A stretch of 64,000 bases of DNA from Anastrepha obliqua. Taxonomy: Eukaryota > Arthropoda > Insecta > Diptera > Tephritidae. Shown here piece by piece: positions 2,235 through 51,696 of the stretch. A model generated the notes under the pieces. The model ran no database searches. It saw only the letters and a list, made by a program, of their open reading frames with translations, and had not been told where the DNA came from. The stretch is taken from assembly GCF_027943255.1 (NCBI RefSeq), contig NC_072894.1, forward strand, positions 78,407,601-78,471,600, in the 5' to 3' direction. Positions within the stretch are counted from its first letter, which is position 1; each line of letters begins with the position of its first letter. Both the position numbers and the translations under genes were made by a program.

Positions 2235-2311
2235 CCATGCCATGCCAGTTTTTATATCACAAGTTACAAATTGTTTTCAGTGAATTTTCCTTCATTTCCA
2301 AAAATTTCGTC

Positions 2312-3795
2312 ATGGCTATTAAAAAAATCCAACCATCTCAATCATTCGCAAAAATAATAAGGATGGCTCGCTTCATTTCCGGAGTGGTCGGCGCTGACGT
2401 CTCCAATATGGATTATAAAATCAACATTATTACCGTTATAGTGATAATCTGTATTACCATTTATTTCATCTTCACTGCTTCAACGGTAGCGAATGTATTT
2501 TCGGAGAATTGGAAATACATGTTGGAAGCATCCTGTATGGTGGGCAGCGTATTTCAGGGCATCACCAAACTTATTTCGGGGATCTGTTACACGAAATCCA
2601 TCTCTGGAATGCGCTTGGAATTAGAAAAGCTCTATATTGAATACGAGGCTAAGGGTGAGGGCTACTGTAAGGCTTTGAATGAGTGTTGCGAGCGCGTATG
2701 GCAAATTATAAAACTGGTCGGCCAACTCTATGCTGCCTCAGTATTTGGTATACTCCTTTTAACTGCCATTTTGGTCATCGTAACTGACAAGCAAGTTTAT
2801 GTAATGCATTTCTTTATACCTGGAATCGACGTCAATACGCATTTTGGTTATTTGACTACATTGATTGTGCACACTGTGGTGTTTTTAGCTGGCGGTTTTG
2901 GTCTCTTTGCAGGAGATTTATTCTTCCTGATTTACCTAGGACAGCCAGAATTATTTCGCGATCTTTTGGTATTAAAAGTAAAAAACCTAAATGAGGTTTC
3001 TGCCGAACGCAATGTAATAACTGAAAAACTATTGATCGATATTATTGAATGGCATCAATACTACACAGAGTAAGAATTTTGCGATTTATAAGCGTGTGAT
3101 TTTTATCGTTCGATGTGCATACATACATACATCTACATCTATCATTAATTTCAGTTACAACAAGCGTTGCAATCGAATATTTTATTATATAATCACCATG
3201 CAAATTGTGACATCGGGCATTTCAATCATTTGCACTATGTATATTATTTTAATGGGAGATTGGCCAGGCGCATACTTGTATATTATGGTCGCCGTTTGTG
3301 GACTTTATCTTTATTGTATTATTGGCACAAAAATCGAGACTTGTGTAAGTTAAGTCAGTATTTGAAGAGAAAGAAGTAAAAACTTATTCTTTATTATATG
3401 TCACATATTTGTATATGGCAGATTTTGAAGCCAAACCGGATATCCCTATTTAATATTTCTCGTGCTTCCACAGAATCAAGCGTTTTATGAGGAGCTTTAC
3501 AACATTAACTGGTACAATTTGGACGTGAAAAATCAGAAAATGATGGTATTTATTTTGAAGAAGTCCCAAAGTCCCAGTGAAATAAAAATTGGCGGAGTCT
3601 TGCCACTATCCGTACAAACTGCTCTTTCGGTAAGGACGAACGCCATTTTTAATTTGTTTCATAGACGCGTGAGAAATATAACAGATCATTTTTTATAATT
3701 GTGTTTTTTTTGTTTTTTGTTCTTTTTTTTAGATAACAAAATCGATTTACGGATTATTTACAATGATGTTGGGCTTTTTGGATGAGGAGCAGTGA
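2312..3795 (+). CDS. Insect odorant receptor (7TM Or family), 4 exons, 388 aa
   Basis: Proposed exons are 2312-3069, 3155-3344, 3474-3629 and 3733-3795. Every intron is GT-AG, with donors GTAAGA, GTAAGT and GTAAGG. The spliced frame gives 388 residues, usual for insect odorant receptors, which form ligand-gated cation channels with the Orco co-receptor in sensory neuron membranes. Family marks are several hydrophobic segments (for example residues about 39-60 and 137-160) and a C-terminal exon-3 region reading FYEELYNINWY and then MMVFILKKSQ, the conserved end of the family. The last exon ends FLDEEQ. The start at 2312 is chosen because the paralogue at 5011-6468 starts at the equivalent ATG and a TATA box lies just upstream. 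Subfamily is uncertain. Or67d-like is possible but only a guess from memory, and the ligand is unknown. Confidence 0.9.
3028..3275 (+). repeat. Identical tract shared with the paralogous receptor (copy A)
   Basis: From late exon 1 through all of intron 1 into exon 2, these 248 bp match the reverse complement of 5505-5752 without a difference by eye. Flanking exon 1 differs at roughly 56 of 253 residues. This looks like a gene-conversion tract. Confidence 0.8.
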
Positions 3796-5010: not shown

Positions 5011-6468
5011 TCATTGGTTCTCATCCAAAAAGCGTAGCATCATTGTAAAAATGCCATAAATCGATTTTGTTATCTAAAGTTAAAAAGGAAAAGTAATAAC
5101 AGCAGTGACTTACTTTCTGATTCATATTCGAGAAATTTCTCATAAATTACCGAAAGTGCTGTTTGTACGGAGAGTGGTAAGAATCCGCCAATTTTTATTT
5201 CACTGGGACTTTGGGACTTCTTCAAAATAAATACCATCATTTTCTGATTTTTTACATCCAAATTGTACCAGTTAATATTGTAAAGCTCTTCATAAAACGC
5301 TTGATTCTGTGGAAATACGAGAAATATTAAATAAGGATATTCGGTTTGGCTTCAAAATCTGCCACATACGAATATGAGACATATAATAAAGAATAAGTCT
5401 TCACTAGCCCCTCTTCAAATTCTCATTTAACTTACACATGTCTCGATTTTTGTGCCAATAATACAGTAAACATAAAGTCCACTGAATGCGACCACAATGT
5501 ACAGGTATGCGCCTGGCCAATCTCCCATTAAAATAATATACATAGTGCAAATGATTGAAATGCCCGATGTCACAATTTGCATGGTGATTATATAATAAAA
5601 TATTCGATTGCAACGCTTGTTGTAACTGAAATTAATGATAGATGTAGATGTATGTATGTATGCACATCGAACGATAAAAATCACACGCTTATAAATCGCA
5701 AAATTCTTACTCTGTGTAGTATTGATGCCATTCAATAATATCGATCAATAGTCTTTCAGTTATTGCATTGTTTTTGGTAGAAACCTTATTAAGGTGCTCT
5801 ACTTTCAATACCAAAAGATCGCGAAACAATTCCGGTTGTCCCAGAAAGAACAAAAAAAATAGATCGCCCGCAAAGAGCCCAAAACCGCCAGCTACTATCA
5901 GCACAGTGTGCACAATCAATGTAGTCAAATAACCAAACTTCGTCTCAACGTCCACCCCAGGTATAAGGAATTGCATTACATAAACTTGCTTGTCGGTTAC
6001 GATGACCAGAACGGCTGTCAAAAATAATATTCCTACAACAGTGATAGCGTAAATGTTTCCAACCATTTTGATAAATTGCCATACGCGCTCGCAACATTCG
6101 TTCAAAGCCTTACAATAGGCCTCACCCTTAGTTTCGTATTCACTATAGAGCCATTCTAATTCTGAGCATACCGTGGAGATATCTTTGGCGTACACAATGG
6201 CCGAAATAAGTTTGGTGACGCCCTGCAATACGCTGCCCACCATACAGGATGCCTCCAACATGTACTTCCAATTCTCCGAAAATACATTCGCCACAGTGGT
6301 GGCAGTGAAGATGAAATATATGGTAATGCAGATTATCACTATAACGGTAATAATGTTAACTCTATAATTCACATCGTACACATCAGCGCCGACCACTCCG
6401 GAAATGAGTCGAAAGGCCTTAATGATTTTTGCAAGTGACTGCGAAGGTCGAATATTTTTTACAGCCAT
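5011..6468 (-). CDS. Insect odorant receptor paralogue (7TM Or family), 4 exons, 388 aa
   Basis: Minus-strand exons are 6468-5711, 5625-5436, 5306-5151 and 5073-5011, with lengths 758, 190, 156 and 63, identical to those of the gene at 2312-3795. All introns are GT-AG. The protein is 388 residues, starting MAVKNIRPSQ and ending FLDENQ. Exon 1 is about 78% identical to its neighbour in residues, by hand count. Intron 1 and adjoining exon sequence are identical in nucleotides. Differences cluster in the middle of exon 1 (around the ELEWLY segment) and in the VEHLNKVS region, which could affect specificity. The genes are tail-to-tail, so they arose by inverted local duplication. A TATA box lies 72-78 bp upstream. 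Role and uncertainty are as for the first copy. Confidence 0.9.
5505..5752 (-). repeat. Identical tract shared with the paralogous receptor (copy B)
   Basis: This is the counterpart of 3028-3275. The first mismatches flanking it correspond to positions 3027 and 3276 of copy A. It includes all 85 bp of intron 1. Confidence 0.8.
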
Positions 6469-9939: not shown

Positions 9940-11185
9940 CGAAGGGTGCCTTTTATATTTCGGCATTTGGCAACCCTGGTGTTGCAATCTGGCAACTGAC
10001 AGCTGTATCACAGAACGTTTTGAAATACCAGCGCTATTTGTGTTGTTTACAGTAACTTAAAAGATTCATCTCGGTCCAAAAATGGAATTAAATCGTGAAC
10101 ATTTTCGTGAGATTATTTTTTACAACTTTCGACGTGGATTAACTCACCAACATTGCATGGATGAACTTAACTCATTTTTTGGCGATGAAGCTCCATCAAG
10201 GACCAGTGTTTATCGATGGTATGGTGAATTCAATCGTGGTCGTAGTTCACTCCAAGACGAATTTCGTGAAGGTCGTCCAAAATCAGTTGTTGTTCCGAAA
10301 ACCATTGATGCTGTGCGCGAACTGATATTGCAAGATCGTCATGTGACCTATCGCGAGATTGAGACAATCTTAGACATTAGTGGGACCAGCATACATTCAA
10401 TATTGCATAAACATTTGACTGTCAAAAAAATTTGTTCGCGTTGGATCCCACACAATTTGTCAATCGCTCAAAAAAAGGCTCGTGTCGATTGGTGGAAGGA
10501 AATGCTCAAAAAATACGATCGCGGGGCTTCGAATCACGTCTATGACATCGTGACAGGTGATGAATCATGGATTTACGCGTATGAGCCCGAAAGTAAACAG
10601 CAGTCGACTGTATGGGTGTTTCAAGATGAGCCAAATCCAACAAAAGTTGTTCGCTCACGAAGCACTTCCAAGCAAATGGTCGCCTGTTTTTTCGGACATG
10701 TCGCAACCGTACCACTAGAACAACGCAGAACAGTAAATTCTGAGTGGTACACAGCCATTTGTTTGCCAGTTGTCTTCCAAGAAATTAGAAAAACCAATCG
10801 CCAAAGACGGATCACTCTTCACCAATGCGAGCTCTCACACATCGGCTCAAACAACTGCATTTTTGAGCACCCAAAACATCGAATTAATGGGTCATCCGCC
10901 GTATAGTCCTGATTTGACACCGAATGACTTCTTTTTATTCCCGTACGTAAAAACCAAACTGAGAGGTCAACGTTTTTCGACACTTGAAGAAGCGGTTGCG
11001 GCATTCAAAATGCATGTTTTGGAGGTACCTCATTCAGAGTGGCAAAAGTGCTTTGACAATTGGTTCAAACGCATGCAAAAGTGTATAGATCTTCATGGAG
11101 AATATTTTGAAAAACAATAAAGTGATTTTCGATGATTAAAATTTGTTTTTGTTCTCCAATCCCGAAATATAAAAGGCACCCCTCG
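9940..11185 (+). mobile_element. mariner transposon with TIRs and TA target duplication
   Basis: The left end reads CGAAGGGTGCCTTTTATATT and the right end is its near-exact inverse (CGAGGGGTGCCTTTTATATT). Both are flanked by TA (9938-9939 and 11186-11187). Length is 1246 bp, typical of mariner. It contains one transposase gene, broken as described in the nested entry. It is the best-preserved mariner in the window. Confidence 0.9.
10082..11120 (+). pseudogene. mariner transposase, frameshifted, second catalytic Asp deleted
   Basis: The protein starts MELNREHFREIIFYNFRRGL with a helix-turn-helix N-terminus (FGDEAPSRTSVYRW). The first catalytic Asp is in VTGDESWIY at residue 160, and the third lies in PPYSPDLTPNDFFLFP. 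At 10823 a 5-bp deletion after ITLH shifts the frame and removes the HD of the usual HHDNA box, and with it the second catalytic Asp. The downstream frame resumes at NASSHTSAQTT and ends at the stop near 11120. A few residues also appear to be missing around FFGHVATV. It therefore cannot encode an active transposase, yet the rest is little decayed, so inactivation looks recent. Confidence 0.85.
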
Positions 11186-15403: not shown

Positions 15404-16034
15404 GCAATATCTATTACCTGAATAAAATATATTCTGCTATTTTCGAAATACATCTGTAATATATTAATAAATATTCAAAGAATTCTGCACACATTAGTAG
15501 GTGTGCACTTGGTACTACCCACTCATATTTTATGTAATATTATGTAATTAAAAAGCGTGAAGTTAATATGTATTCCACTTCTCGTGAAATTAGAGTGATT
15601 ATTTGTATGTATCATACATGTGGAAGTAACTGGCTTCTCGCTTACAGTTTGTTATTTTCCCTTCCATTATAGTCTACTTTCAGGCTATGACACGGGCAAG
15701 TAGTAAATTGCGTGTTAATTTCTTATACCTACGTAAGCATTCTTGGTTGCTACGTACCGTGTGCTTTAAATCGATCGACCTAATTCCACACTCCCCCATC
15801 TAATTTCCTGTACTTTGTACTTCCCTTCTAATTCTGTACATTCAAAAAAAAAAAGAAAGTGAAACTCATTCAAGGTATTGAATTAATTTAGCAAGAGAAA
15901 TTCACATCAATTTACACCCAACATCAAGATAAGAAATTTAAGAAATGTTTAATAGTTTTGACTGCTTTCTTCTTTAATTTACAAAGGTTTAAAACTTTGT
16001 ACAGCTTCAAACTTTTTAATCAGAATGTAATGAA
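15404..16034. other. Intergenic, nothing recognised
   Basis: AT-rich sequence without an identifiable gene or a copy of the window's repeats. Confidence 0.45.
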
Positions 16035-16346
16035 TAAATATAAATATAAATATAAATATAAATATAAATATAAATATAAATATAAATATAAATATAAATA
16101 TAAATATAAATATAAATATAAATATAAATATAAATATAAATATAAATATAAATATAAATATAAATATAAATATAAATATAAATATAAATATAAATATAAA
16201 TATAAATATAAATATAAATATAAATATAAATATAAATATAAATATAAATATAAATATAAATATAAATATAAATATAAATATAAATATAAATATAAATATA
16301 AATATAAATATAAATATAAATATAAATATAAATATAAATATAAATA
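16035..16346. repeat. Perfect (TAAATA)52 microsatellite
   Basis: Fifty-two uninterrupted hexamer units cover exactly 312 bp, followed by a few imperfect units to about 16373. The open frames here (Tyr-Lys, Ile-Tyr and Leu-Tyr repeats) follow from the repeat and are not genes. Confidence 0.97.
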
Positions 16347-16373
16347 CAATTATAAATATAAATATTATATAAA

Positions 16374-17204
16374 AATTCTAGCACAATATTTTTCTAAAAT
16401 AACCAGGTTTAGACCGGTTAAAATTTAAAAAAATATATATATTATATTATATATTAGTTGTATTCCAACATTTTAAAATATTCAATTTAATATTAAAAGT
16501 TATACAGAATATGTGTTTTCTTATAATTAAATGTAATTTATTAAACATTCAAGTATTGGTTTATGTAAGTAAATCTTAAGAAACTCGAAATAATAATTTA
16601 ATAATATTCCTATTTTTTCCTTGTTCACTCCTTTCGGGAGCATAGGGCCTCGACAAGACTCTTCCATCGTACATGCTGTTGTTTTTGCACCGTGTGACCT
16701 ATCCACTTCCGTACAACAATTCGGACTTCACGAATGAGCCGAATGTTCATGCTTTAATAAAATAGTTAAATTTTAAAAACTTTAGTTGTGGCAAAAATAG
16801 TGAATATTTCATTGTAATGGAAGTGTGTGGAAAGAACTCATACGCAAGTGTTGTGAAATAATTATTTCTCTTGACATTTTAAAGCTTAAACTGAGCTTTG
16901 TGAAAACATATATCCATTCCTATAATATTAGTGGGGCGAGGCTACATATAAAATGAATAAATTTAATGTATTGTAAATATTTATTAATTGTTGCCTTTAT
17001 TTGCTAACTTCGATATAATATTTTTCCAATAAATCTATTTAACAGCGTCTAAGAGACTTTCCTTTCAGATTTTGCGCCTTTGCAACACCATGTTTGATGA
17101 GCTGTTATTTGATATTTTTATAGGAAAGTTTGGTATTCTTTAACATAAAATTACATCTAATGCTTTCCCTTACGAGCTGCTTTCTTCTTTTTTCAGTGAG
17201 TAGC
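16374..17204. other. AT-rich intergenic stretch with a possible LINE tail at 16621-16730
   Basis: On the minus strand 16730-16621 can be read as HVRWKSLVEALCS, similar to the C-terminus of RTE/CR1-like LINE proteins. The match is short. The remainder shows no gene. Confidence 0.3.
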
Positions 17205-18040: not shown

Positions 18041-18475
18041 TAGGTTGGGGAATAACTTCGTAGCGTTTTTCCGAAGATGTTTTTTTAAACGAAAAACAAT
18101 AATTATATCACTAAGTTCATCAATTAAGGAGGGTAGATGTTGAAATGGAATAAAATGGCGTTTGCTGTGTGGCACGTAGCGCCGTCCTGCTGGAACCATA
18201 TGTCGTCTAGGTCCATATGGTTCAATATGGGCCATAAGAAATTGGAAGGGCCACCACGTCTACCGAAAAATGGGCGCAATGCGCGCAAAGTTTGCGTTAA
18301 TGAACACTCATTTTGATAATAAAGTTTTATCATTTGAACGTGCTGTTCAATCGTGTAACTTGCCATGATGATTTGGCAAAGAACTGAATAATAAACAAAA
18401 GATTTGACAGATGTCACCAAAACAAAATGGCTGCCACAGGGCGCCAAAATCGACCCGCGCCAATTGAAAAACCCT
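18041..18475 (-). mobile_element. WFQQDGA-type transposase, internally deleted copy
   Basis: The minus strand from about 18366 reads MASYTIEQHVQMIKLYYQNE and LTQTLRALRPFFGRRGGPS, a DUF4817-like helix-turn-helix N-terminus. It then jumps to LWPILNHMDLDDIWFQQDGA and TCHTANA, the second catalytic Asp region. About two thirds of the transposase is missing. The lower end starts TAGGTTGGGGAATAACTTCG, a mariner-like terminus that differs from the other end, so the element may be chimeric. Confidence 0.7.
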
Positions 18476-18489
18476 TTATATACACCGTT

Positions 18490-19070
18490 GCCGTTTACAA
18501 CTTCTTCCCACTCTGATGTTGTCGTGAAAGAGTATGGTTTGACCAATTCTTTTCCGTCGAATAGCCTCATTAACGCGGTGTTGCTGGGCAATGTCGAGCT
18601 TCTTTTCGAGCATTTCTCAGTACACTACGCCCTCCCAGACCTACCAAACACCACCTTCTTTGGATAAGGATCCCGCTTGACTCTCAGCTTTGGTGTATAG
18701 GCAACATGTCTTGTGACGATTCGGTGCAAAAAGCGCTGGTTATGACCTCATGTTGCTCGATGGCGGGCTAGATGCTGAGAAACAATTTGAAGGACTTTCT
18801 TTTTTTTCAAATTGCAAATCCCACTGAAGGATTGAAAATCGGTTTATAATCACAATACATTATTTTCGCCAAATCACAACTAGTTTGGAGACCGTTCTCC
18901 TTCAAAAGTGATTTGAAACGTTTTTCATCGAATTCAGAAGACCTTTCGCTACGCGACGTGTCATCGGCGTCAAAGTCTCCATTTTTGGATACTGCCGATT
19001 CTGTAACAACTAACTTCGTGCACTTTTAGTTTCGTCGATTTCGTTTACGCATTTTTAATGTTGAAGATCC
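18490..19070 (-). pseudogene. Decayed mariner copy
   Basis: The minus strand gives fragments in mariner order: FDEKRFKSLLKENG and TSCDLAKIM-like (around 18930), LQIVSQHLARHRAT (around 18780), KLRVKRDPYPKKVV (around 18690) and LDIAQQHRVNEAIRRKRIGQ with TILFHDN (around 18600-18540). Stops and frameshifts are frequent. The WFQQDGA-type element at 18041-18475 lies next to it. Confidence 0.65.
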
Positions 19071-20385: not shown

Positions 20386-20736
20386 AATTTTGTTTAGGGG
20401 GTGAAGTGTACGTTGCTTCTTGGGGGAATGCACACAGAGGCGTATGGCAGTTGTGCCAGTAGCCTAAAGACCGACCATTGTGGTAGAATGCCACTCCTGC
20501 ACGAGGTGCCCCTGCTTTTTAACCAAAAATGGCGGATCTAGAGAGGCATAACTCGAAAAAACCCGTAATCCTAGGTGTAATTCGAACCGTGCCTATAAGA
20601 TGAATGGCACTACGTAAGCGTGTCTTATAACGGTGACCTCCAGATATCGGGCGCCCTCTGGTTGTAATTAGCCTTACCGCGACACCGGGGCACTGTCGTG
20701 GCTCGACCATCCTTTCCCCTTCACTCGTGGGACCAT

Positions 20737-22161
20737 ATGGCAGAGTTAAACAATTCTTTAAAAAAGGCAGGAGTGCCCAATATAAACCAGGTCGATAACG
20801 ACCTTTCGGTAAATAGTGCCGAACTACCTTCAACATCGCAGGCAGCTAAGGGCAAACAATGCCCTCCAACTGTCAGCGAAAGCACGGATATGGAAGTTGA
20901 CGACATGGCCCTGGGGCCAGATGGCAAAGCTTCTACCATATCACCAGAGGAAGAGGATAAACTATTATCTTCTCCCACTTGTGACACAGGAAGAAAGGAC
21001 GAAGACAAGGTGCGGCTTTGCGGTGCCGCCAGAAAACGCCTGAAGTACTTCCTGAGAAAAGGTCACAGCATCGACGAGGCAAGAGAGCTGGCTCAAAAAC
21101 CAGCTGATCTGAAGCGACAACGCTCCAGCAGCACCACGCCAAAGCAAAGCTCCCCTAAGCGTGCCAATTTACAGGGGAGCTCTAGCGTTGGAAAAAAGGC
21201 AGTAGAGACTACCGAAACGGAAGGACCAAAGGCAGCAGTGCCTAATCTAGAAGTCAAGGTAGACTCAACAAAAATGTCTTACAAAGACGCGGCGTGCAGC
21301 ACGAAGTTGGGAATAATTCCTCACGATTATCCAACTACGATATGGTCGACGGAGAGACTAACGGCCATACAACATGCTATCCTGGAGGCGATAAGGAAAA
21401 AGCAGACTGGGGCTGCAAAGCCCAAATTTAATAGCTGCACCTTTCGCCCAGGATATATAGTTATATCATGTGGCTGCGATGAAACGGCTAGTTGGCTAAA
21501 GGAAGCAGTTCCTAAGCTGAAGCCGTGGAAAGATGCACAGCTGAAGATTGTGCAGGAAGCGGACATACCGCGCCCACAAATCTTCGTTGGTCACTTTCCA
21601 GAATTGGACAGCACCACAACTGAGGATATTATTAGCCTCCTCGACGGCCAAAACGAGGGCCTCAACACAAATGACTGGCGGGTGCTCAACAGAGTGCGCA
21701 AGGGTACTGTGGTAGAAATTACCATTGCTATCGACCCTATCTCCGCAGAAGTCATAAAGACTTCCAACAACTGGCTGAACTACGGGTTCGGTAAAACCCA
21801 ACTTCGGCCAAAATCTAAAGGCCCGATTGATCCGCCTAAGGTTACCGAAAAGGACTCTGAACCCTCGGCGAAACAAAGCTCTGAGGAAGCAGGAACTTTG
21901 ACTCCAACGGCTTCAATAGCCCAGGACGAAAAGACCAGCTGCTCCAGACAAGAGGCAGGAAAGCCAACAACATCCGGCACATGGCGCCATAACGTGGCCG
22001 AGGGTATTCGCATGCGACCCCCGCTGCAGGCTGATAAAAAAGCCCACAGCCACAACAAGGATCGAAGAGGGGATCAGATGTCCGCTGAGGAAGCAGTCCT
22101 GCTGAAAAGCAACCGAGGCAAAAAAAAGGCAGCCATTGCCAAACGAAGGTTCACTAGATGA
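20737..22161 (+). CDS. LOA-type LINE ORF1 protein (RNA-binding, DUF4780-like), 474 aa
   Basis: ORF1 of the LINE encodes the nucleic-acid-binding protein that packages the element RNA. ATG at 20737 (MAELNNSLKKAGV) is the first ATG of the frame; the open frame extends further 5' without another ATG. The N-terminal third is acidic and Ser/Thr/Pro-rich with a basic patch (CGAARKRLKYFLRKGHS). A folded region from about residue 170 to 360 contains FRPGYIVISCGCDETASWLK, PRPQIFVGHFPEL and NDWRVLNRVRKG, typical of the DUF4780 domain found in LOA ORF1s. The tail is basic (RGKKKAAIAKRRFTR). No CCHC knuckles are seen. The stop TGA overlaps the ORF2 start. Confidence 0.85.
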   Translation: MAELNNSLKKAGVPNINQVDNDLSVNSAELPSTSQAAKGKQCPPTVSESTDMEVDDMALGPDGKASTISPEEEDKLLSSPTCDTGRKDEDKVRLCGAARKRLKYFLRKGHSIDEARELAQKPADLKRQRSSSTTPKQSSPKRANLQGSSSVGKKAVETTETEGPKAAVPNLEVKVDSTKMSYKDAACSTKLGIIPHDYPTTIWSTERLTAIQHAILEAIRKKQTGAAKPKFNSCTFRPGYIVISCGCDETASWLKEAVPKLKPWKDAQLKIVQEADIPRPQIFVGHFPELDSTTTEDIISLLDGQNEGLNTNDWRVLNRVRKGTVVEITIAIDPISAEVIKTSNNWLNYGFGKTQLRPKSKGPIDPPKVTEKDSEPSAKQSSEEAGTLTPTASIAQDEKTSCSRQEAGKPTTSGTWRHNVAEGIRMRPPLQADKKAHSHNKDRRGDQMSAEEAVLLKSNRGKKKAAIAKRRFTR

Positions 22162-25100
22162 CCTGGCCTAAGCGTAATTCTCACAACACCAGAAGGCAAC
22201 TCGGATGCCTTCAAATAAATCTCCATCACGCAAAAGCAGCCTCGGACGTGCTTACGAAGAGATTTAACCAAGAACTCTTGGATGTAGCTTTCATTCAAGA
22301 ACCATGGGTACGTAAAGGAGTCGTTCTGGGACTCCAGAGCGTAAACGGTAAGTTGATATATGCTGCCAACAAAGACCGTCCCAGAGCGGCGCTGATAATA
22401 AATAATCAACTAACCTTTATCCCAATATCACAGTTCATTACAGAAGACCTGGTGGCGATTTGGGTAAAAGTGCCAACGAGCAAAGGTGAGCATGAGGTAG
22501 TACTTGCCTCCGCCTACCTTCCAGGAGATGGGGTCACTGCTCCAACAAGGGAGGTTATAGCCCTGGTGGAATATTGCCAGCAAAAACGTCTCCGGTGGAT
22601 CCTCTGCTGTGATGCAAATGCGCACCACACAGCGTGGGGAAGCACAAACATCAATCCAAGAGGTAAGTACCTTATTGAATTTCTACTTAGGTATAATATA
22701 TCAATCCTAAACCGAGGCAACGAACCTACATTCATTAATGCAATCAGAGGTGAAGTCCTTGACATCACTCTCTCTAGCCATAATGTTTTGTCCGAAATCT
22801 CAAATTGGCATGTGTCAGAGGAAACATCTATGTCGGATCACAGACATATTAGATTCGATATAGGTGCAACCAAACCACAAACGACAATTTACAGAAACCC
22901 CAGAAAAACTAACTGGGACTACTTTCACTTCTATCTAGAACAAAGTGTTAACTGCTCTAAGCGTCACATTCAGCTTATATCTGAGCTTGAGTTCGAATCG
23001 AACGAACTACATTCAAACCTAATATCTGCGTTTCAGGAAAGTTGCCCAGTAAAAGTGAAAAAGCCACAAAGAAATGTTCCTTGGTGGAATAGTACACTTT
23101 CCAACCTCCGTAAAGAAACAAGAACCCTATGGAATAGAGCTAAAGCAATGGGGGACTGGTCCTCCTACTCAACAGCCCTAACCAACTACAATAAAGAATT
23201 GAGGAAATCTAAAAGGGCTACTTGGAGGAATCACTGTGAAAAGATTTGTAGTCTTCCGGATGCTATTCGAATCCAAAAAGCCCTACTAAAAGATCACTCA
23301 AACGGCATTAGTACCCTGAAAAAGCCAGACGGAAGCTACACAAGGAATCCAGAGGAAACCAGTCAACTTCTGCTGGACACTCACTTCCCTGGATCACTTG
23401 TGCTAGACGAGATCTCTGTACCGGCAGAAACTACTACATCTGCGGGTGCTGAGAACTTAAAACTAGCAAACAAGCTATTCCATGAAAAGCGGGTACAATG
23501 GGCAATATCAACATTCAGTCCATACAAATCTCCTGGTCCTGATGGGATATTCCCCTGTCTCTTACAGCAGGGTGCACACCATATTATCCCTAATTTGACC
23601 AGGCTATACAAAGCAAGCTTACTGCTAGGATATTTGCCTACAAAATGGGCTGAGGTTAAGGTCGTATTTATTCCAAAGGTAGGGAAAAAACCCGAACAAT
23701 TGCCTAAATCATACAGGCCAATTAGTCTCAGCTCATTTTTCCTCAAAACAATGGAAAAGATAGTCGATCAGTATATTAGGGAATACAATCTAGCTAAATT
23801 CCCACTGCATCGACTTCAATTTGCCTATCAACAGGGAAAATCCACTGAGACTGCAATACACAGCCTGGTAACAGTTATAGAAAAGGCTATTGAGTCCAAA
23901 CAGATAGCTCTATGTGCATTTATTGACATATCAGGAGCTTTTGATAACACCTCCTATGAGGCAATCTATAATGCCCTATATCTAAAGGAGGTACCTGAAC
24001 CCATCACTAGATGGATAATATTCATGCTGAAATCTAGGACGATCAGCACTGAACTAGGAGGAACATTCAAATCGATTAAAGCCACAAGAGGTTGCCCTCA
24101 AGGTGGCGTACTCTCACCTCTTCTGTGGACTCTAGTCATAGATGAACTTCTCCACAAACTGAATAACCTAGGATTTCACACTCAGGGTTACGCTGATGAC
24201 CTAGTAGTTTATGTATTAGGCTGGCATGAGGAAACCATTTCGGATCGCATGCAGCAAGCCCTTACAATAATAAACAAATGGTGCACGGAAAAAGGGCTCT
24301 CCATCAACCCATCCAAAACAACTCTTGTACCGTTTACCAGGAGAAGGAACATAATTCTCAAATGTCCGACCCTTAATAGAACAACACTTGAACTCTCGAC
24401 AGAAGCGAACTATCTTGGCGTTAGTCTTGACAAAACGCTTACGTGGAACTCCCATATTGAGAGAGTTACTTCAAAAGCCACAAGGGCATTCTTTGCCTGT
24501 ACAAGGCTTTTCGGCAAGACATGGGGACTAAGCCCTAGAATGACCTTCTGGACATTCACCACAGTTGTAAGACCCATAGTCACCTATGCATCTTTAGCAT
24601 GGTGGCCCAAGGTCAAGCAAAGAAAGGCGGCAAACGAATTAAGCAAACTGCATCGCCTGGTATGTGTTGGCATTACAGGGGCTATGAAAACGTGTCCCAC
24701 GGATGCATTGGGTGTGCTCCTGAACATACCACCGCTTCCAATTCTAATTGAAAGGGAAGCTCGCTCGAGTGCCTTAAGACTAAAAGGTATATCTGAACTT
24801 AAAAGTGGGAATATGAAAGGACATTTAAAGATCTTAGAAGACTTCCTACACAGTCCCATTCTTCATAGGGATGATATACTATCACCCAAACCAATACTCT
24901 TCAGGAACTTCCAAGTTATAATCAATGAACGAACAGACTGGAGAACTAACTCTATCACTTTCAGACCTGGCTCCCAGCTATGGTTTACTGATGGGTCCAA
25001 ATTGGAAAATGGTAGAACAGGGGCAGGAATCAATGGGCCCAAATTCAAAAAATCGATTCCGATGGGATCCTACCCAACTATATTCCAGGCAGAAATACAT

Positions 25101-25796
25101 GCCATCGAAATATGTGTGAGAGAATGCCTTAGAAGGAAAATGAGAGGTACTCACATCTACATACTTTCAGATAGCCAAGCGGCTCTAAAAGCCCTTCTAT
25201 CAACAACTATCACCTCTAAATTGGTAAATGATTGCCTAAACCTTCTAAATACGTTAGGAAACCTCAACACAGTAACACTATGTTGGATTCCGGGACATGA
25301 AGGACATGAGGGAAATGAAATGGCTGATGACCTTGCAAAACAAGGAGCAAATATGCAACTTACTGGTCCTGAGCCTTTCTGTGGACTAACAAAAGGCCAC
25401 ATAAATGAATTCCTTAGGAAATGGGAAGAAAGAAAACTTGCCGCACACTGGCTAAACTGTGCCGGTCAGCGTCAAGCTAAACTATTCATAAGTCCCAACA
25501 AAGGAATATCTGACAAACTTCTCTCACTAAACAGAGTAGATCTGCGTCTTTTAACTGGATACCTTACAGGTCACTGCAGCCTGAGGTACCATCTAAATAA
25601 GATTGGTCTATCCGAGACCAATGTCTGCCGCTTTTGCGAAATGGACATAGAAAGCTCAGAACATGTGCTTTGTGAATGTCCTGCGTTGGGCAGACAAAGA
25701 CTTCACCACCTTGGTGGTACCGTAGTATCTCCATGCAATCTTTGGAACAACAAACCCAAAACTGTGCTAAAATTTCTAAAAAGCCTAAAACTCTAG
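22158..25796 (+). CDS. LOA-type LINE ORF2 polyprotein (endonuclease, RT, RNase H), 1212 aa
   Basis: This enzyme nicks target DNA and copies the element RNA onto it (target-primed reverse transcription). An N-terminal endonuclease/exonuclease/phosphatase domain shows QINLHHAKAA, FIQEPWV, CCDANAHHTAWGS and SDHRHI. RT motifs include SPGPDGIFP, YRPISLSSFFLKTMEKI, FIDISGAFDN, RGCPQGGVLSPLLW and the catalytic YADD at residues 678-681. RNase H follows with FTDGSK (Asp945), FQAEIHAIE, SDSQAALKAL and WIPGHEGHEGNEMADDLAKQ. The C-terminus has CRFCEMDIESSEHVLCEC, a Cys/His box. All key residues are present and there is no internal stop. The ATG lies within ATGA overlapping the ORF1 stop, suggesting termination-reinitiation. 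Confidence 0.95.
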   Translation: MTWPKRNSHNTRRQLGCLQINLHHAKAASDVLTKRFNQELLDVAFIQEPWVRKGVVLGLQSVNGKLIYAANKDRPRAALIINNQLTFIPISQFITEDLVAIWVKVPTSKGEHEVVLASAYLPGDGVTAPTREVIALVEYCQQKRLRWILCCDANAHHTAWGSTNINPRGKYLIEFLLRYNISILNRGNEPTFINAIRGEVLDITLSSHNVLSEISNWHVSEETSMSDHRHIRFDIGATKPQTTIYRNPRKTNWDYFHFYLEQSVNCSKRHIQLISELEFESNELHSNLISAFQESCPVKVKKPQRNVPWWNSTLSNLRKETRTLWNRAKAMGDWSSYSTALTNYNKELRKSKRATWRNHCEKICSLPDAIRIQKALLKDHSNGISTLKKPDGSYTRNPEETSQLLLDTHFPGSLVLDEISVPAETTTSAGAENLKLANKLFHEKRVQWAISTFSPYKSPGPDGIFPCLLQQGAHHIIPNLTRLYKASLLLGYLPTKWAEVKVVFIPKVGKKPEQLPKSYRPISLSSFFLKTMEKIVDQYIREYNLAKFPLHRLQFAYQQGKSTETAIHSLVTVIEKAIESKQIALCAFIDISGAFDNTSYEAIYNALYLKEVPEPITRWIIFMLKSRTISTELGGTFKSIKATRGCPQGGVLSPLLWTLVIDELLHKLNNLGFHTQGYADDLVVYVLGWHEETISDRMQQALTIINKWCTEKGLSINPSKTTLVPFTRRRNIILKCPTLNRTTLELSTEANYLGVSLDKTLTWNSHIERVTSKATRAFFACTRLFGKTWGLSPRMTFWTFTTVVRPIVTYASLAWWPKVKQRKAANELSKLHRLVCVGITGAMKTCPTDALGVLLNIPPLPILIEREARSSALRLKGISELKSGNMKGHLKILEDFLHSPILHRDDILSPKPILFRNFQVIINERTDWRTNSITFRPGSQLWFTDGSKLENGRTGAGINGPKFKKSIPMGSYPTIFQAEIHAIEICVRECLRRKMRGTHIYILSDSQAALKALLSTTITSKLVNDCLNLLNTLGNLNTVTLCWIPGHEGHEGNEMADDLAKQGANMQLTGPEPFCGLTKGHINEFLRKWEERKLAAHWLNCAGQRQAKLFISPNKGISDKLLSLNRVDLRLLTGYLTGHCSLRYHLNKIGLSETNVCRFCEMDIESSEHVLCECPALGRQRLHHLGGTVVSPCNLWNNKPKTVLKFLKSLKL

Positions 25797-35509: not shown

Positions 35510-35513
35510 GTTT

Positions 35514-38500
35514 CACAGTGCTCCTAAAGCAAGGGCAGGGTTTTTGAAAATGGATCCAAGATTTTCCAACGTAGAGTTTTCGTATATGACCTCTAGATTT
35601 CAAATTTTCAAACCCCGAAATCGTACCTGATCCTATTTTAAAGATAAATGTATGTATTACTTATGTATGTACTTAAATGTAAACCACTTTCAGCGTAACC
35701 CAGGACCAACGACGGGGACGTAGTGGTAACCTGGTCCCATTTTGTTTTTTAAATTTTTTTGGTTGATTTTTTGTTTTTTTATATTTTTTTTTTTGGTTTT
35801 TTTTTGATTTTTTTAAATGTTATTATTAAATAAAAACTTGAGCGATAACGATACTCCTTGGAATCAAAATTTTGATTATGCATTAAGTGATGAAAATTCT
35901 ACAACTGCTGTAAAAAGCTTCTCTAAGTATAACTCATCTTCGATTGTATTTATTTTATATCTCTCCCAAGTTTGCGAGAATTCACGGTGGAGTGACTCTC
36001 CACTTTGCTCGGACCAATATCCTAGACCATCATTGTGTTTTATGAATTGAAGACATTCCATAATGTGGGTTTTTAAGACATGAATTTTTAAGGTTACTGA
36101 GATGTCTTCAATTTCATGTAAAGCAATCAAAGCTTTGTTTAACTTATCCAAATGAACGTTTAGTTCTGGTCCTACTTTTCCAGATGTAAAACTACAATCG
36201 ACAACTTTATTCATTATTACAAAAGCATTGGTAAAAGGTATGATTTTTAAATATCCCACAGTTTCATAAATCTCAGGATCATTTAGTTTGTGAGCTTCTT
36301 TTAAAAGTTTCCTACATGCATTGCCTTCGAAACAATCTCCGTGGTAGTTTTTGGAAATAAGTTTTAATTTTTTTGGCCATATCAAAGCTTTATCTTTTCC
36401 CAAAAGGGGTACTAAACCTTTCCAAAACAGATGGTTTACGAAGCCCATTAGCACGTGTAATTCAGGAATTACGCATTTTTCTAACACAGTGATGTCATCA
36501 CTTTCGGTAAATAGAGGGAGGTTAATAGTGCTATGAAACTCTTTGCTGTTTTTCTTATTTCCACCAGCAAGATTGAACTGTTCATAATCGTTTCTTAAAT
36601 CTCCGTATGATTTCAGTTTGATAACATTGCTTTCAAAATTATCTGCATTGGAACTACATTGATTGTAAAGCACATCTTCCTGTCCAGATGTCTTGTTTTC
36701 TTTCAAGTCGTTAAGTGAAACAAAACAATAAGGACAAGGAAACATTGCAGATGCCGTCTGTTGGCCATTTATGATAAGCATCAATTTAAAATCCGAAACG
36801 AACTTGAAGGGAATGTTATTTATTTTAGTGATGTCAAACAAAAGTTTTACGTTTTCATACGTTTCCTTTATCTTAGGTACAATGCATAGTAGTATAACTC
36901 GTTTCACGCTCATCAATTTTGCTTTCTTACTTGCGCTACCTCTCTCAGAATAAAGACTTCTCTGATTTTTATCATGAATTGTTAAATCATCATAATTAAA
37001 ATCATCACCATCAGAATTTTCTTGAAATATTGATAAAGAAATTTTAAAAAATCCGCGGCCCCCGTCAGCCATTGCTTTAACACAAACATTCCCTTCAAGT
37101 TTTCTTTCCATAATTACTGCATCAAAAAGTTCTTCCGCATTTGCGTAAACTACTGGTCTTTCTTCTTTTTTTGCATCATCACAATCAAAAAAGTATTTAT
37201 CTTTTTTATATATATCTTGTAAAAGTTTCGATTTTTCTGACATGTGCTTCTTATAGTCAACGGGTACTGACTTTCTTCCAACATTTGATCTTAAAAAGTT
37301 AGCAATGCTTTTCATTTTATTACTGGATAAGCCAAGGTTTACTCGCAAATTATCCAAACGCTCTTCACTGAACGTAATGTCCTTTTTTTCATTAGGATTA
37401 ACAACAACTCTCATTTTAGAACCCTTCGTACTCAACTCAATTTTCTTATTCTTAATGTGTCGATTTATATCGTCTTCAGAATCAATTTTGGTTCTAATAA
37501 TAGTTGACGCAACTATTTCTTGCTTGACATCAGGAAGTTTTTCTATTATTTTTAAAGCATTGCCTTGAATATTATTACATGAATGTTTTTTGCCTTTACC
37601 AATTTCTTGTAAGCATTTTTTACATATTTGTATATTAGTTTTTTCCTTTTTTTGGCTGTCTTTCTTTGCAAGTTTGTCAATATTTGAGGATCCATAAAGA
37701 CCATTAGTTGTATCAATCTTAGTTTCGAAATTTCGTTTACAACCCTTACCCTTTACTACTTTCTCATGACCTTTATATCTGCCTGTTAAACATACATAAC
37801 AATTACAACTGTCCATAAATGTGCGAGTACTTTTAGGTAAAACCAAACTATTGTAATCTGGCATGTCTGGAAAAGGTCTTGTAAAAATGTTGTTACTTGC
37901 ATCAAAAAGTGTGAGGTAGCAAGTTCTGCATGTGCTAAGGGGGTATTTTTCGTTATTTAAATCATAATCTTTGTTTATAAATTTCTTTATCAATGTTTCA
38001 TACTTTTCGTTTATAAGAAATTTATTCGGCTTTTTTTTGCCAAAAGAAATTTTTGTACCGCAAGGTCCGCAGACTTTACGTCTATTTTCATCGTGAGAAC
38101 AAGCTTTCGTATTGTCCATTGCACCATTCTAAACAAGTCAAACACTACTTGAAAATATCTGCAAAGCCTTTTTTATTCGTAATTTAACAAAAATTATTTC
38201 AGTTTTTTAGTGTTGAATAGGACCAAAATGTTTGCGTCAAAGGTGATTTATATTAGGATTGTGAGTTTATTTTAAATTACAGGTATTTGTGTTATTGAGA
38301 TGATGGCTGCTAGACTACAAGTGACTTTTTAGATATTGTGAAATGTACAAATAAACGTCTAGCCTGGCAAGGCCTATTAGATCTTTATCTGGCGTAGACA
38401 TGAACCTATGCACATTTAAACTGAAAATAAGTAATGTAAATCTTTCAACTAGATTTACCACAGGTAAACTTACTCTATCTTTAAAATAGGATCAGGTACG

Positions 38501-38608
38501 ATTTCGGGGTTTGAAAATTTGAAATCTAGAGGTCATATACGAATACTCCAGGTTGGAAAATCTTGGATCCATTTTCAAAAACCCTGCCCTTGCTTTAGGA
38601 GCACTGTG
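35514..38608 (-). mobile_element. Apparently intact Chapaev-like DNA transposon with 133-bp TIRs starting CACAGTG
   Basis: The terminal inverted repeats are 35514-35646 and 38476-38608, 133 bp each with only 3 mismatches by eye. Both begin CACAGTGCTCCTAAAGCAAG from the outside. GTTT flanks both ends (35510-35513 and 38609-38612), a 4-bp target duplication. A single 747-residue reading frame on the minus strand fills most of the interior. Near-identical TIRs and an open frame indicate recent activity. Known facts used: Chapaev-type (CMC) elements are described with 4-bp duplications and termini beginning CAC, and some carry a RAG1 N-terminus-like domain. The exact superfamily is inference. Transib is a less good fit because it makes 5-bp duplications. 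Confidence 0.85.
35876..38119 (-). CDS. Putative transposase with RAG1-N-terminus-like Cys motifs, 747 aa
   Basis: The frame starts at ATG 38119 and is uninterrupted. It is the only gene of the transposon, so it is presumed to cut the CACAGTG ends and integrate them. Cysteine pairs lie at 17/20 (CGPC), 64/67 (CRTC), 105/107/110 (CNCYVC) and 166/169 (CKKC) with HSC at 179-181. This spacing recalls the zinc-binding N-terminal region of RAG1 and of N-RAG-TP transposases. The central part has VNLGLSSNKMKSIANFLRS. Candidate acidic catalytic residues sit in conserved-looking blocks: ADGGRGFFK (Asp352), IPELHVLMG (Glu553) and YWSEQSGESLHREF (Glu704, Glu708). The last resembles the context of the RAG1/Transib catalytic Glu, but this is by eye. 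A CPYC pair near residue 468 could be a zinc site within the core. Similar proteins recur as repeats in arthropods and cnidarians, as I recall. Confidence 0.85.
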   Translation of the reverse strand: MDNTKACSHDENRRKVCGPCGTKISFGKKKPNKFLINEKYETLIKKFINKDYDLNNEKYPLSTCRTCYLTLFDASNNIFTRPFPDMPDYNSLVLPKSTRTFMDSCNCYVCLTGRYKGHEKVVKGKGCKRNFETKIDTTNGLYGSSNIDKLAKKDSQKKEKTNIQICKKCLQEIGKGKKHSCNNIQGNALKIIEKLPDVKQEIVASTIIRTKIDSEDDINRHIKNKKIELSTKGSKMRVVVNPNEKKDITFSEERLDNLRVNLGLSSNKMKSIANFLRSNVGRKSVPVDYKKHMSEKSKLLQDIYKKDKYFFDCDDAKKEERPVVYANAEELFDAVIMERKLEGNVCVKAMADGGRGFFKISLSIFQENSDGDDFNYDDLTIHDKNQRSLYSERGSASKKAKLMSVKRVILLCIVPKIKETYENVKLLFDITKINNIPFKFVSDFKLMLIINGQQTASAMFPCPYCFVSLNDLKENKTSGQEDVLYNQCSSNADNFESNVIKLKSYGDLRNDYEQFNLAGGNKKNSKEFHSTINLPLFTESDDITVLEKCVIPELHVLMGFVNHLFWKGLVPLLGKDKALIWPKKLKLISKNYHGDCFEGNACRKLLKEAHKLNDPEIYETVGYLKIIPFTNAFVIMNKVVDCSFTSGKVGPELNVHLDKLNKALIALHEIEDISVTLKIHVLKTHIMECLQFIKHNDGLGYWSEQSGESLHREFSQTWERYKINTIEDELYLEKLFTAVVEFSSLNA

Positions 38609-38612
38609 GTTT

Positions 38613-42975: not shown

Positions 42976-43977
42976 ATGTCGAACATTGCTGCCAACGTTT
43001 ATGCTTTTCTGACGGCGCCAGGAACCTTATACGGTACGTATATAGTAGGTATATACGTGAATATACATAGCATACAATTATAAAACTTAGATTTTAGAAA
43101 TGTATGTAGAATTGTCTTTCACCCAGGTAACCGCTTCCTGCCCTTCCATGGTACCCTACTGCCATATCTGCTGACAAATATTCTCTATGTACTGCTGGTG
43201 TTCAAGATCGGTCCGTGGTATATGAAAAATCGCCAACCATACAACCTTAAGACTGTGCTACGCTACTATAACATTGGACAAATTATTTACAATGCAATTG
43301 TTTCAGGCATGGTAAGATTTATTGTACTTGTGTACCTGAGAATGTTTGCAAAAGATACTTAATTGTCTTATGTTTCAATGTAGGCTTTTTACTTGTATGT
43401 TTACAAGCGTCCGATGGCCATTACTTGCATGACCATTCTACCCACAGGACATCCGCTTAAGAACATTGAAGGACTCGTCAGTGCACTCTACTTGATCAAT
43501 AAATTTATAGACTACTTCGATACAATATTCTTTGTGCTCCGCAAGAGTTACAAGCAAATCACATTTCTGCATGTATATCATCATATAATGATGACATCCT
43601 TAAGCTTGCTGTACATAAGATATTCGGGAGGTGGTGGACATGCATCCATGATTGGTATTTTGAACACCAACGTGCATGTATTCATGTACGCTTATTACTT
43701 TATGAGTGCGACTCGACCGGAAATGAAGAATTCTCTGTGGTGGAAAAAGTATGTGACCAGCCTGCAGCTTGTCCAATTCGTTCTGATACTTGTGCATCAA
43801 ATGTGGCCTTTGGTGATTCAACGGGATTGCGAGTATTCAAAGGCTCTTTGTTTGTGTTCCTCCATTCAGGCCATTTTAATGCTTTACTTATTTGGTAGTT
43901 TTTATATTAAAACATATGTACGAAATCCAAAAAAGAATGCGGCGCAACAAGTCTCACAGGAAGCAAAAGAACGCTAA
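42976..43977 (+). CDS. Very-long-chain fatty acid elongase (ELOVL), 3 exons, 278 aa
   Basis: Exons are 42976-43033, 43127-43311 and 43384-43977, with GT-AG introns. The enzyme is the condensing 3-ketoacyl-CoA synthase of the ER membrane elongation cycle, adding two carbons from malonyl-CoA. Family motifs are NKFIDYFDTIFFVLRK at residues 120-135, the HVYHH histidine box (HxxHH) at 144-148, NVHVFMYAYYF after it, and QLVQFVLILVHQMW in the later membrane segments. The early LPFHGTLLPYL and YNLKTVLRYYN segments fit the first membrane helices. The C-terminus is Lys/Asn-rich (RNPKKNAAQQ), like an ER retention tail. Length is usual for insect ELOVLs. In flies such tandem copies often make cuticular hydrocarbon or pheromone precursors. 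The orthologue cannot be named from sequence alone. Confidence 0.95.
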
Positions 43978-50668: not shown

Positions 50669-51696
50669 ATGTTGGATACCTTGGGATACATCTACGACTT
50701 TCTTACAAGTCCAAGCACCCTTAGAGAAGGTAAGAAACGCAGTTGCACATTTTATTTATACTTTTGACCTATTGAGATTGTATGAACACAAGAACATTTT
50801 TTTCAATTCATCACAAAGGCTATGATTATCTACCTTTCCATGGCGCACTGTTGCCCTTTCTACTACTCGAAATTGCGTACGTGACTTTTGTCTTCAGAAT
50901 AGGACCATGGTTTATGAAGAATCGGGAGCCCTATAAGTTAACGGCAGTGCTTTGGTATTACAATGTAATACAGATTCTTTTCAACTCATTCATGGCGACT
51001 TTGGTAAGACTTTATTGATTGCAACATAAAAATAAAATACATCGAGTACGAAAATTTGATATTGAAATTTCCCATGCAAACATAATTTCAATTTGATCAT
51101 TTCAGGCTGTGTATTTGTTCTTCTATAAAAAAGTCGTACCCATTGGTTGTATGACTGTGCTGCCTTGGGAACATCCGCTCAAGTCGTTGGAGGTGTTAGC
51201 CGGCTATTCTTACGTATTCAATAAGTTTCTCGACCTTTTCGACACAATAATCTTTGTACTGCGTAAAAGCTACAAACAAGTGACTTTCCTTCATGTTTAC
51301 CATCACATAATGATGACCAGCATTTCGATAATTTATGCAAAAAATATTGGCTCAGGTGGGCATGCCGCTATCACTGGTACCATGAATGCCATAGTGCATA
51401 TAATAATGTATGGATATTACTTTGTGAGTGCCACAAGACCGCATATGAAAAACTCGCTATGGTGGAAGAAGTACATTACACAAATACAAATTGTACAATT
51501 CGTTTTGGCCTTAATACATAATCTGTGGCCGCTGATAATCGATACCGATTGTAGTGTTCCAAAAATCTTTTGTGTATTCTCGGTGATACAAGCCATAATG
51601 ATGATCTACCTTTTTGGTAGTTTTTACAAGAAAAGTTATTTGGACCAAAGTGGAAAATCGAAAGGGGCAAGTAAAAGTAGTGACAAAGGCTTATAA
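50669..51696 (+). CDS. Very-long-chain fatty acid elongase (ELOVL) paralogue, 3 exons, 278 aa
   Basis: Exons are 50669-50729, 50819-51003 and 51106-51696. Exon 2 is 185 bp as in the gene at 42976, and all introns are GT-AG in the same phases. It has the same role in ER fatty acid elongation. Motifs are NKFLDLFDTIIFVLRK at residues 121-136, HVYHH at 145-149, NAIVHIIMYGYYF and QIQIVQFVLALIHNLW. The tail ends KSKGASKSSDKGL, basic and Ser-rich, different from its neighbour. It lies on the same strand 6.7 kb downstream, so the two are a tandem duplication later filled with transposons. Divergence in exon 1 and the C-terminus is clear, while the catalytic block is nearly identical. The substrate chain length is unknown. 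Confidence 0.95.

Follow-up and report, generated by a model that had tools for sequence, protein, structure and literature searches.

A RING-less Chapaev-type DNA transposon with a RAG1-related transposase and a recent burst of copies in Anastrepha obliqua

A 64,000-nucleotide stretch of the Anastrepha obliqua genome (assembly GCF_027943255.1, contig NC_072894.1, positions 78,407,601 to 78,471,600; hereafter the window) contained a 3095-bp element at positions 35514-38608, with GTTT on each flank and one intronless minus-strand frame inside. This element was classified, at a probability of about 0.93, as a cut-and-paste DNA transposon of autonomous type in the Chapaev superfamily (CMC/Transib/RAG1 group), one that spread in a single recent burst. 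Chapaev membership was assigned because of the CAC/GTG ends, the 4-bp target-site duplication, the transposase motifs and the Chapa-type N-terminal zinc domain. It is of the RING-less type and probably a new addition to this established superfamily. Its features were as follows:

35510..35513, no strand: left target-site duplication GTTT, read from the sequence
35514..35646, plus strand: left terminal inverted repeat (TIR), starting CACAGTG, with its 27-mer absent from shuffles
35876..38119, minus strand: single-exon transposase open reading frame (ORF) of 747 codons and a stop; a protein search gave 110 proteins with E <= 0.001
35879..37384, minus strand: residues 246-747, RAG1/Transib-type DDE core (D352, D443, C462xxC465, L554H555, H680x4H685, E708); from fold and motifs
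37577..37624, minus strand: residues 166-181, small conserved zinc-type motif C166xxC169...H179xC181; from alignment A1
37790..38095, minus strand: residues 9-110, N-terminal zinc domain (H9, C17xxC20, P60, C64xxC67, C105xC107xxC110); from the model and hhalign
38476..38608, minus strand: right TIR
38609..38612, no strand: right target-site duplication GTTT, read from the sequence

The inverted arms were 133 nt each and differed at exactly three sites (arm positions 58, 60 and 65), with termini reading 5'-CAC ... GTG-3'. The terminal 27-mer occurred twice in the window and in none of 100 dinucleotide shuffles (up to three mismatches). The transposase frame opened with ATG and closed with TAA, and a TAG lay in frame four codons before the start. 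The repeats with three mismatches, the GTTT duplication on both sides and the uninterrupted 747-codon frame proposed in a first-pass annotation of the window were all recovered at these coordinates.

Searching the 836-Mb assembly with the first 187 bases of the element gave at least 33 matches, of which 32 had 98-100% identity and the remaining one 76%. From these matches 17 stretches were taken, 15 of which (L009 to L023, the window copy being L014) had both ends, chosen by the terminal 27-mer within three mismatches at each end. Excluded from the 15 copies were L024 (left end truncated), L025 (the 76% end only) and a second piece beside L015. Counted over columns held by at least 12 copies, with the window representing L014, 6-19 substitutions per copy separated the copies from the majority letter (mean 0.37%; range 0.19-0.62%). 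All 167 substitutions counted were private to one copy and none was common to two. The copies therefore form a pure star, with one source sequence, a single recent burst and then decay, and no sign of later copying rounds among these copies. Variable sites fell at codon positions 1, 2 and 3 in the numbers 37, 45 and 31, so the copies decayed without visible constraint. The fly mutation rate is about 3e-9 per site per generation, and at that rate 0.37% would correspond, very roughly, to some million generations and perhaps to 10^5 years. Recent activity, which the first-pass annotation had claimed, is supported by the star of 15 near-identical copies.

Two stretches carried additional structure. 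The excluded piece in L015 (6046-6837) was a further left-end fragment of the family, 792 bp long and about 2.6 kb from a near-complete copy. The copy in L009 (401-4223) was interrupted near one end by an insertion of 741 bp and had flanks without a matching duplication.

Identical 4-bp flanks were found in 13 of the 15 copies, and their sequence varied (e.g., GTTT, CTGA, TGCG and AACA). Empty sites were checked by translating the joined flanks: all 15 were inspected for frames, and the three with long frames (L016, L018 and L023) were followed. With one tetramer kept, no gap fell at the junction when the L016 flanks were aligned to the reverse transcriptase in the window (E 6e-9), nor when the L018 flanks were aligned to a mariner transposase (E 2e-10); both copies had therefore inserted into other mobile elements, duplicating 4 bp. 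The frame-length control was modest, with 163-164 codons in the right frame of L016 versus 129-153 in the others. The window contained no counterpart for the joined flanks of L023. These flanks share GCGTG, which can be read as 5 bp, but the reading frame fits the dropping of 4, not 5, and this copy was ambiguous. Of the 15 copies, three were tested in this way, and empty sites with the tetramer once were seen, at the protein level only, in two of them.

Other mobile elements also lay in the window. An apparently intact non-LTR retrotransposon (20698-25796, plus strand) had two abutting frames, one of 487 aa with DUF4780 and one of 1212 aa with endonuclease, reverse transcriptase and RNase H. 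A mariner-type transposase remnant (18124-18591, minus strand), identified by the mariner transposase motif FQQDGATCHTA, served as a yardstick for an empty site.

Alignment A1 contained 62 sequences, namely the window protein and 61 of its 110 relatives, picked mostly for near-full length; the other 49 relatives were outside the alignment. The N-terminal cysteines listed in the first-pass annotation (17/20, 64/67, 105/107/110 and 166/169) stood where it had placed them and were conserved: C17, C20, C64, C67, C107 and C110 in 61 of the 62 sequences, C105 in 58, and C166/C169 in all 62. Within the core, D352, D443, E708, H555, C465, H680 and H685 were present in 62/62 and C462 and L554 in 61/62. 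Beyond that list, H9, H179, C181, C462/C465, H555 and H680/H685 were equally conserved. Relatives came from named insects, among them Psylliodes, Brassicogethes, Leptopilina and Eretmocerus, and bore labels such as 'unnamed' or 'uncharacterized'; together with the odorant-receptor pieces in the window they support the description of the element as an insect member. A further relative (P0007; JGI, 14.7-kb contig) matched about 65% of the window protein at 84% identity. Among viral contigs 24 stretches fitted a pattern, with no confirmed relative, and the exact terminal 27-mer was absent from them.

RAG1 cleaves antibody genes in humans, and the relationship to it was seen in both the core and the N-terminus. 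The fold search returned RAG1, BbRAGL and HzTransib as the best matches of the core, which had the RAG1-type fold found in Transib and RAG-like (RAGL) transposases. In the leading structural matches its identity to RAG1 was 13-15%. Residues 1-182 modelled alone reached a predicted local distance difference test (pLDDT) score of 90.6. For sequence comparison, a profile was made from 69 of the 72 RAG1 proteins found, the named ones being tetrapods; the N-terminal set comprised 61 of the 62 members. The N-terminus matched the RAG1 profile in hhalign at E 3e-4 with a score of 31.8, as against at most 25.2 in 300 column shuffles of that profile and 16.7 with the profile reversed. In this alignment H9, C17/C20, P60, C64/C67 and C107/C110 paired with RAG1 H103, C111/C114, P172, C176/C179 and C211/C214, positions that were invariant in 16 aligned RAG1s (of the 69). 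At full length, the best local match was again N-terminus to N-terminus (score 38.0 versus at most 32.0 in 120 shuffles), and an extended RAG1 alignment over 663 columns recovered all 16 key pairs together. The proposal that the protein is RAG1-related is therefore backed by core fold and by profile alignment.

Vertebrate RAG1 and the window protein share the core fold, all eight catalytic and core-zinc residues, and the N-terminal H and C1, C2 and C3 cysteine pairs in matching order. Unlike RAG1, the element has no RING/ZDD, a 4-bp rather than a 5-bp duplication, no RAG2-size frame and a core identity of only 13-15%. No RING family matched the window protein in a Pfam scan, and RING families were found in 16/16 RAG1s scanned (of 69). 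Inside the element, no ATG, GTG or TTG frame of at least 80 aa that could be a RAG2-like convergent gene was found except an 87-aa antisense frame, although a gene broken by introns would escape this search.

Chapaev is reportedly a superfamily of Kapitonov and Jurka (2007). The hallmarks shared with it by the element were CAC...GTG ends, a duplication of 4 bp (3-4 bp in Chapaev), a DDE core with C(2)C, LH and H(4)H, and the N-terminal 'Chapa' zinc domain, as these are given in passages of PMC4079192 and PMC4411706; the Chapa-type domain was compared by way of the RAG1 profile rather than a Chapaev reference. Two Chapaev subgroups carry a RING finger, according to a passage of PMC4411706, and the window protein does not. 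The first-pass annotation had called the element Chapaev/N-RAG-TP-like. The Chapaev part stood, every testable hallmark being present, and the N-RAG-TP part did not: N-RAG-TP of Aplysia, like the element, has a RAG1-N-terminus-like domain within a transposon, but is described in part of PMC8355894 as composed entirely of such sequence, whereas the element has a whole catalytic core and is therefore Chapaev. A RAG1-like N-terminus in Chapaev, which was also claimed, was seen here but is not new, as the section of PMC4411706 on the Chapa domain already presents it as common to RAG1 and Chapaev. Chapaev in insects is not new either, because CMC-Chapaev is co-mentioned with insects in the literature and an excerpt of PMC3630058 reports Chapaev3 in a fly, Calliphora vicina. 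Chapaev3 (Merrow, Garfield, Conan) has the same catalytic motifs as the element, and in the relevant part of PMC4079192 its duplications are TWA, between A and T; it was ruled out, as the element had no TWA 3-bp duplication and instead varied 4-bp ones.

Several observations weigh against the classification. The Chapaev placement would follow from described hallmarks and not from a tree containing reference Chapaev transposases. No Pfam transposase matched the window protein, a single-sequence Pfam search returning chance hits only, and the Chapaev-linked family DUF1280 was matched by just 3 of the 62 members (best E 0.021; below the cut-off in the one score seen). Neither the window protein nor profile A1 recovered RAG1 among PDB sequences, where again only chance hits were found. 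The hhalign probability of the RAG1 match was 40% for the N-terminus and 12.6% at full length, and matches to a single RAG1 sequence were weak (E 0.028 and 0.21). The core-to-core profile match was also weak (E 0.054, probability 1%), so the core assignment rests on fold and motifs. Recovery of the 16 key pairs shows consistency rather than providing an independent test, because these residues had been selected with the help of similar alignments made before. Two of the 15 copies lacked a clean 4-bp duplication (none in L009; offset by one base in L023), and the full 747-codon frame was lost in 13 of the 15, being kept only in the window copy and L012.

By one account of the window copy, which falls only a little short of an even chance, the family burst once and no longer moves, the window copy being already disabled and its frame whole only by chance. 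The star without shared changes or sign of later copying among these copies, the two remaining frames and the absence of codon-position constraint after insertion all fit this account. L012 differs from the window copy at nine amino acids, one change being C169S, which removes a cysteine present in 62/62 sequences of A1. The window copy itself has private replacements at residues 63, 101 and 393, the last being Gly in 47 of 61 relatives. Against extinction stand the mean divergence of just 0.37% and the intact frame, ends and catalytic and zinc residues of the window copy; moreover, the data come from one assembly, in which polymorphism of copies is not visible. Whether the window copy is already disabled stands at about even odds, and the first-pass claim that it has everything needed to move is plausible as to frame, ends and key residues and is qualified by the three private replacements.

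A Transib or RAGL transposon, the lineage that gave rise to RAG1, in place of Chapaev is very unlikely. Transib ends are of CAC type, and HzTransib has the same core fold as the element. The top fold matches and the RAG1-like N-terminus would agree with such an origin, but the fold search had no Chapaev structure to compete, since none exists. The recombination signal sequence (RSS) heptamer is CACAGTG, identical to the first seven TIR bases. The RSS nonamer, by contrast, was found in the TIR only reversed, with one mismatch, at positions 26-34 after an 18-bp gap; in forward orientation it had at least three mismatches. RSS identity of the TIR was rejected and the heptamer match was taken as CAC plus chance, because the nonamer fit was poor and a sister family starts CACGGTA. 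Duplications in Transib and RAGL are 5 bp, invariably or predominantly, in a passage of PMC7204232, as opposed to 4 bp in 13/15 copies here, and the element lacks a RAG2-size second frame. Likewise, its 13-15% core identity to RAG1 contrasts with more than 30% for the RAGL-type (TransibSU) transposase, and Transib itself is without the N-terminal region, both according to passages of PMC4411706. A domesticated host gene within old transposon ends, for which the intact 747-codon frame would speak, is scarcely credible given 15 dispersed copies with near-identical ends, 13 of them with 4-bp duplications, and codon positions unconstrained since insertion.

The sister Chapaev family was represented by L046, L047 and L048, all starting CACGGTAGGCAGG (CACGGTA ends). 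Repeats were about 185 bp in L046 and L047, and L048 had a shorter matching right end; the 4-bp duplications were TAGG, TGCG and ATAG. L047 and L048 shared 99.5% identity across 2.7 kb, which suggests that this family is likewise young. Further relatives in the same genome were found at 38-54% identity (60 of 566 candidates scored).

For the Chapaev element, homology to RAG1 and Transib suggests a mechanism in which a transposase dimer would pair both inverted repeats, the D352/D443/E708 site would cut at the CAC ends, and the freed ends would be joined to the target at sites staggered by 4 bp. Zinc would be bound by C462/C465 and H680/H685, as it is by RAG1 C727/C730 and H937/H942, and the N-terminal zinc domain might, as a guess, serve dimerisation or partner binding. 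After one burst the copies would have decayed neutrally, the window copy being one of two still reading through. The origin of the RAG1 N-terminus is still argued (parts of PMC4411706 and PMC8355894). Here a family 0.37% from its source has a transposase alignable with RAG1 over N-terminus and core, and it combines the RAG1 N-terminal layout with 4-bp duplications while lacking both RING and a RAG2-size frame. Because its ends, duplication and protein are known, what a RAG1-type N-terminus does for a cut-and-paste transposase could be tested directly.

The shared N-terminal domain may also bear a weak resemblance to the arthropod ZAD, a zinc domain found in insect transcription factors (Pita, 7pok; Grauzone, 1pzw), which has a similar C-x2-C ... 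C-x2-C layout. ZAD proteins are not known to contain a transposase. The Pfam family zf-AD matched 33 of 62 full-length members at E <= 10 and 8 of 16 N-terminal pieces (best E 0.011, a weak match). The N-terminal profile aligned to the single 1pzw sequence at E 0.027 over 59 columns (hhalign), and the two best of three Foldseek matches of the N-terminal model were the Pita ZAD, with weak scores. Speaking against the link, only 2 of 10 members scanned alone matched at E <= 1, the N-terminal profile A4 matched no PDB sequence at E <= 10, none of 16 RAG1s scanned matched zf-AD, and the RAG1 N-terminus aligned to 1pzw over only 11 columns (E 0.033). That the front zinc domain, Chapa, the RAG1 N-terminal C1-C2 region and ZAD are one homologous zinc fold, so that vertebrate RAG1 and the many ZAD transcription factors of arthropods would share a module that travelled on Chapaev-like transposons and the burst family would keep its complete RING-less layout in a form testable in cells, is a tentative idea that we consider rather doubtful.

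Elsewhere in the window, Pfam identified another mariner-type transposase remnant (10082-10906, plus strand). Two similar odorant-receptor (7tm_6) coding pieces lay in opposite orientation (2237-3073, plus strand; 5707-6468, minus strand), with long exact inverted words pairing nearby, around 3555 and 5186. Two fatty-acid elongase (ELO) coding pieces (43393-43977 and 51109-51696, plus strand) were about 7.7 kb apart, and a long simple repeat at 15958-16428 (plus strand) had a frame reading KYKYKY...
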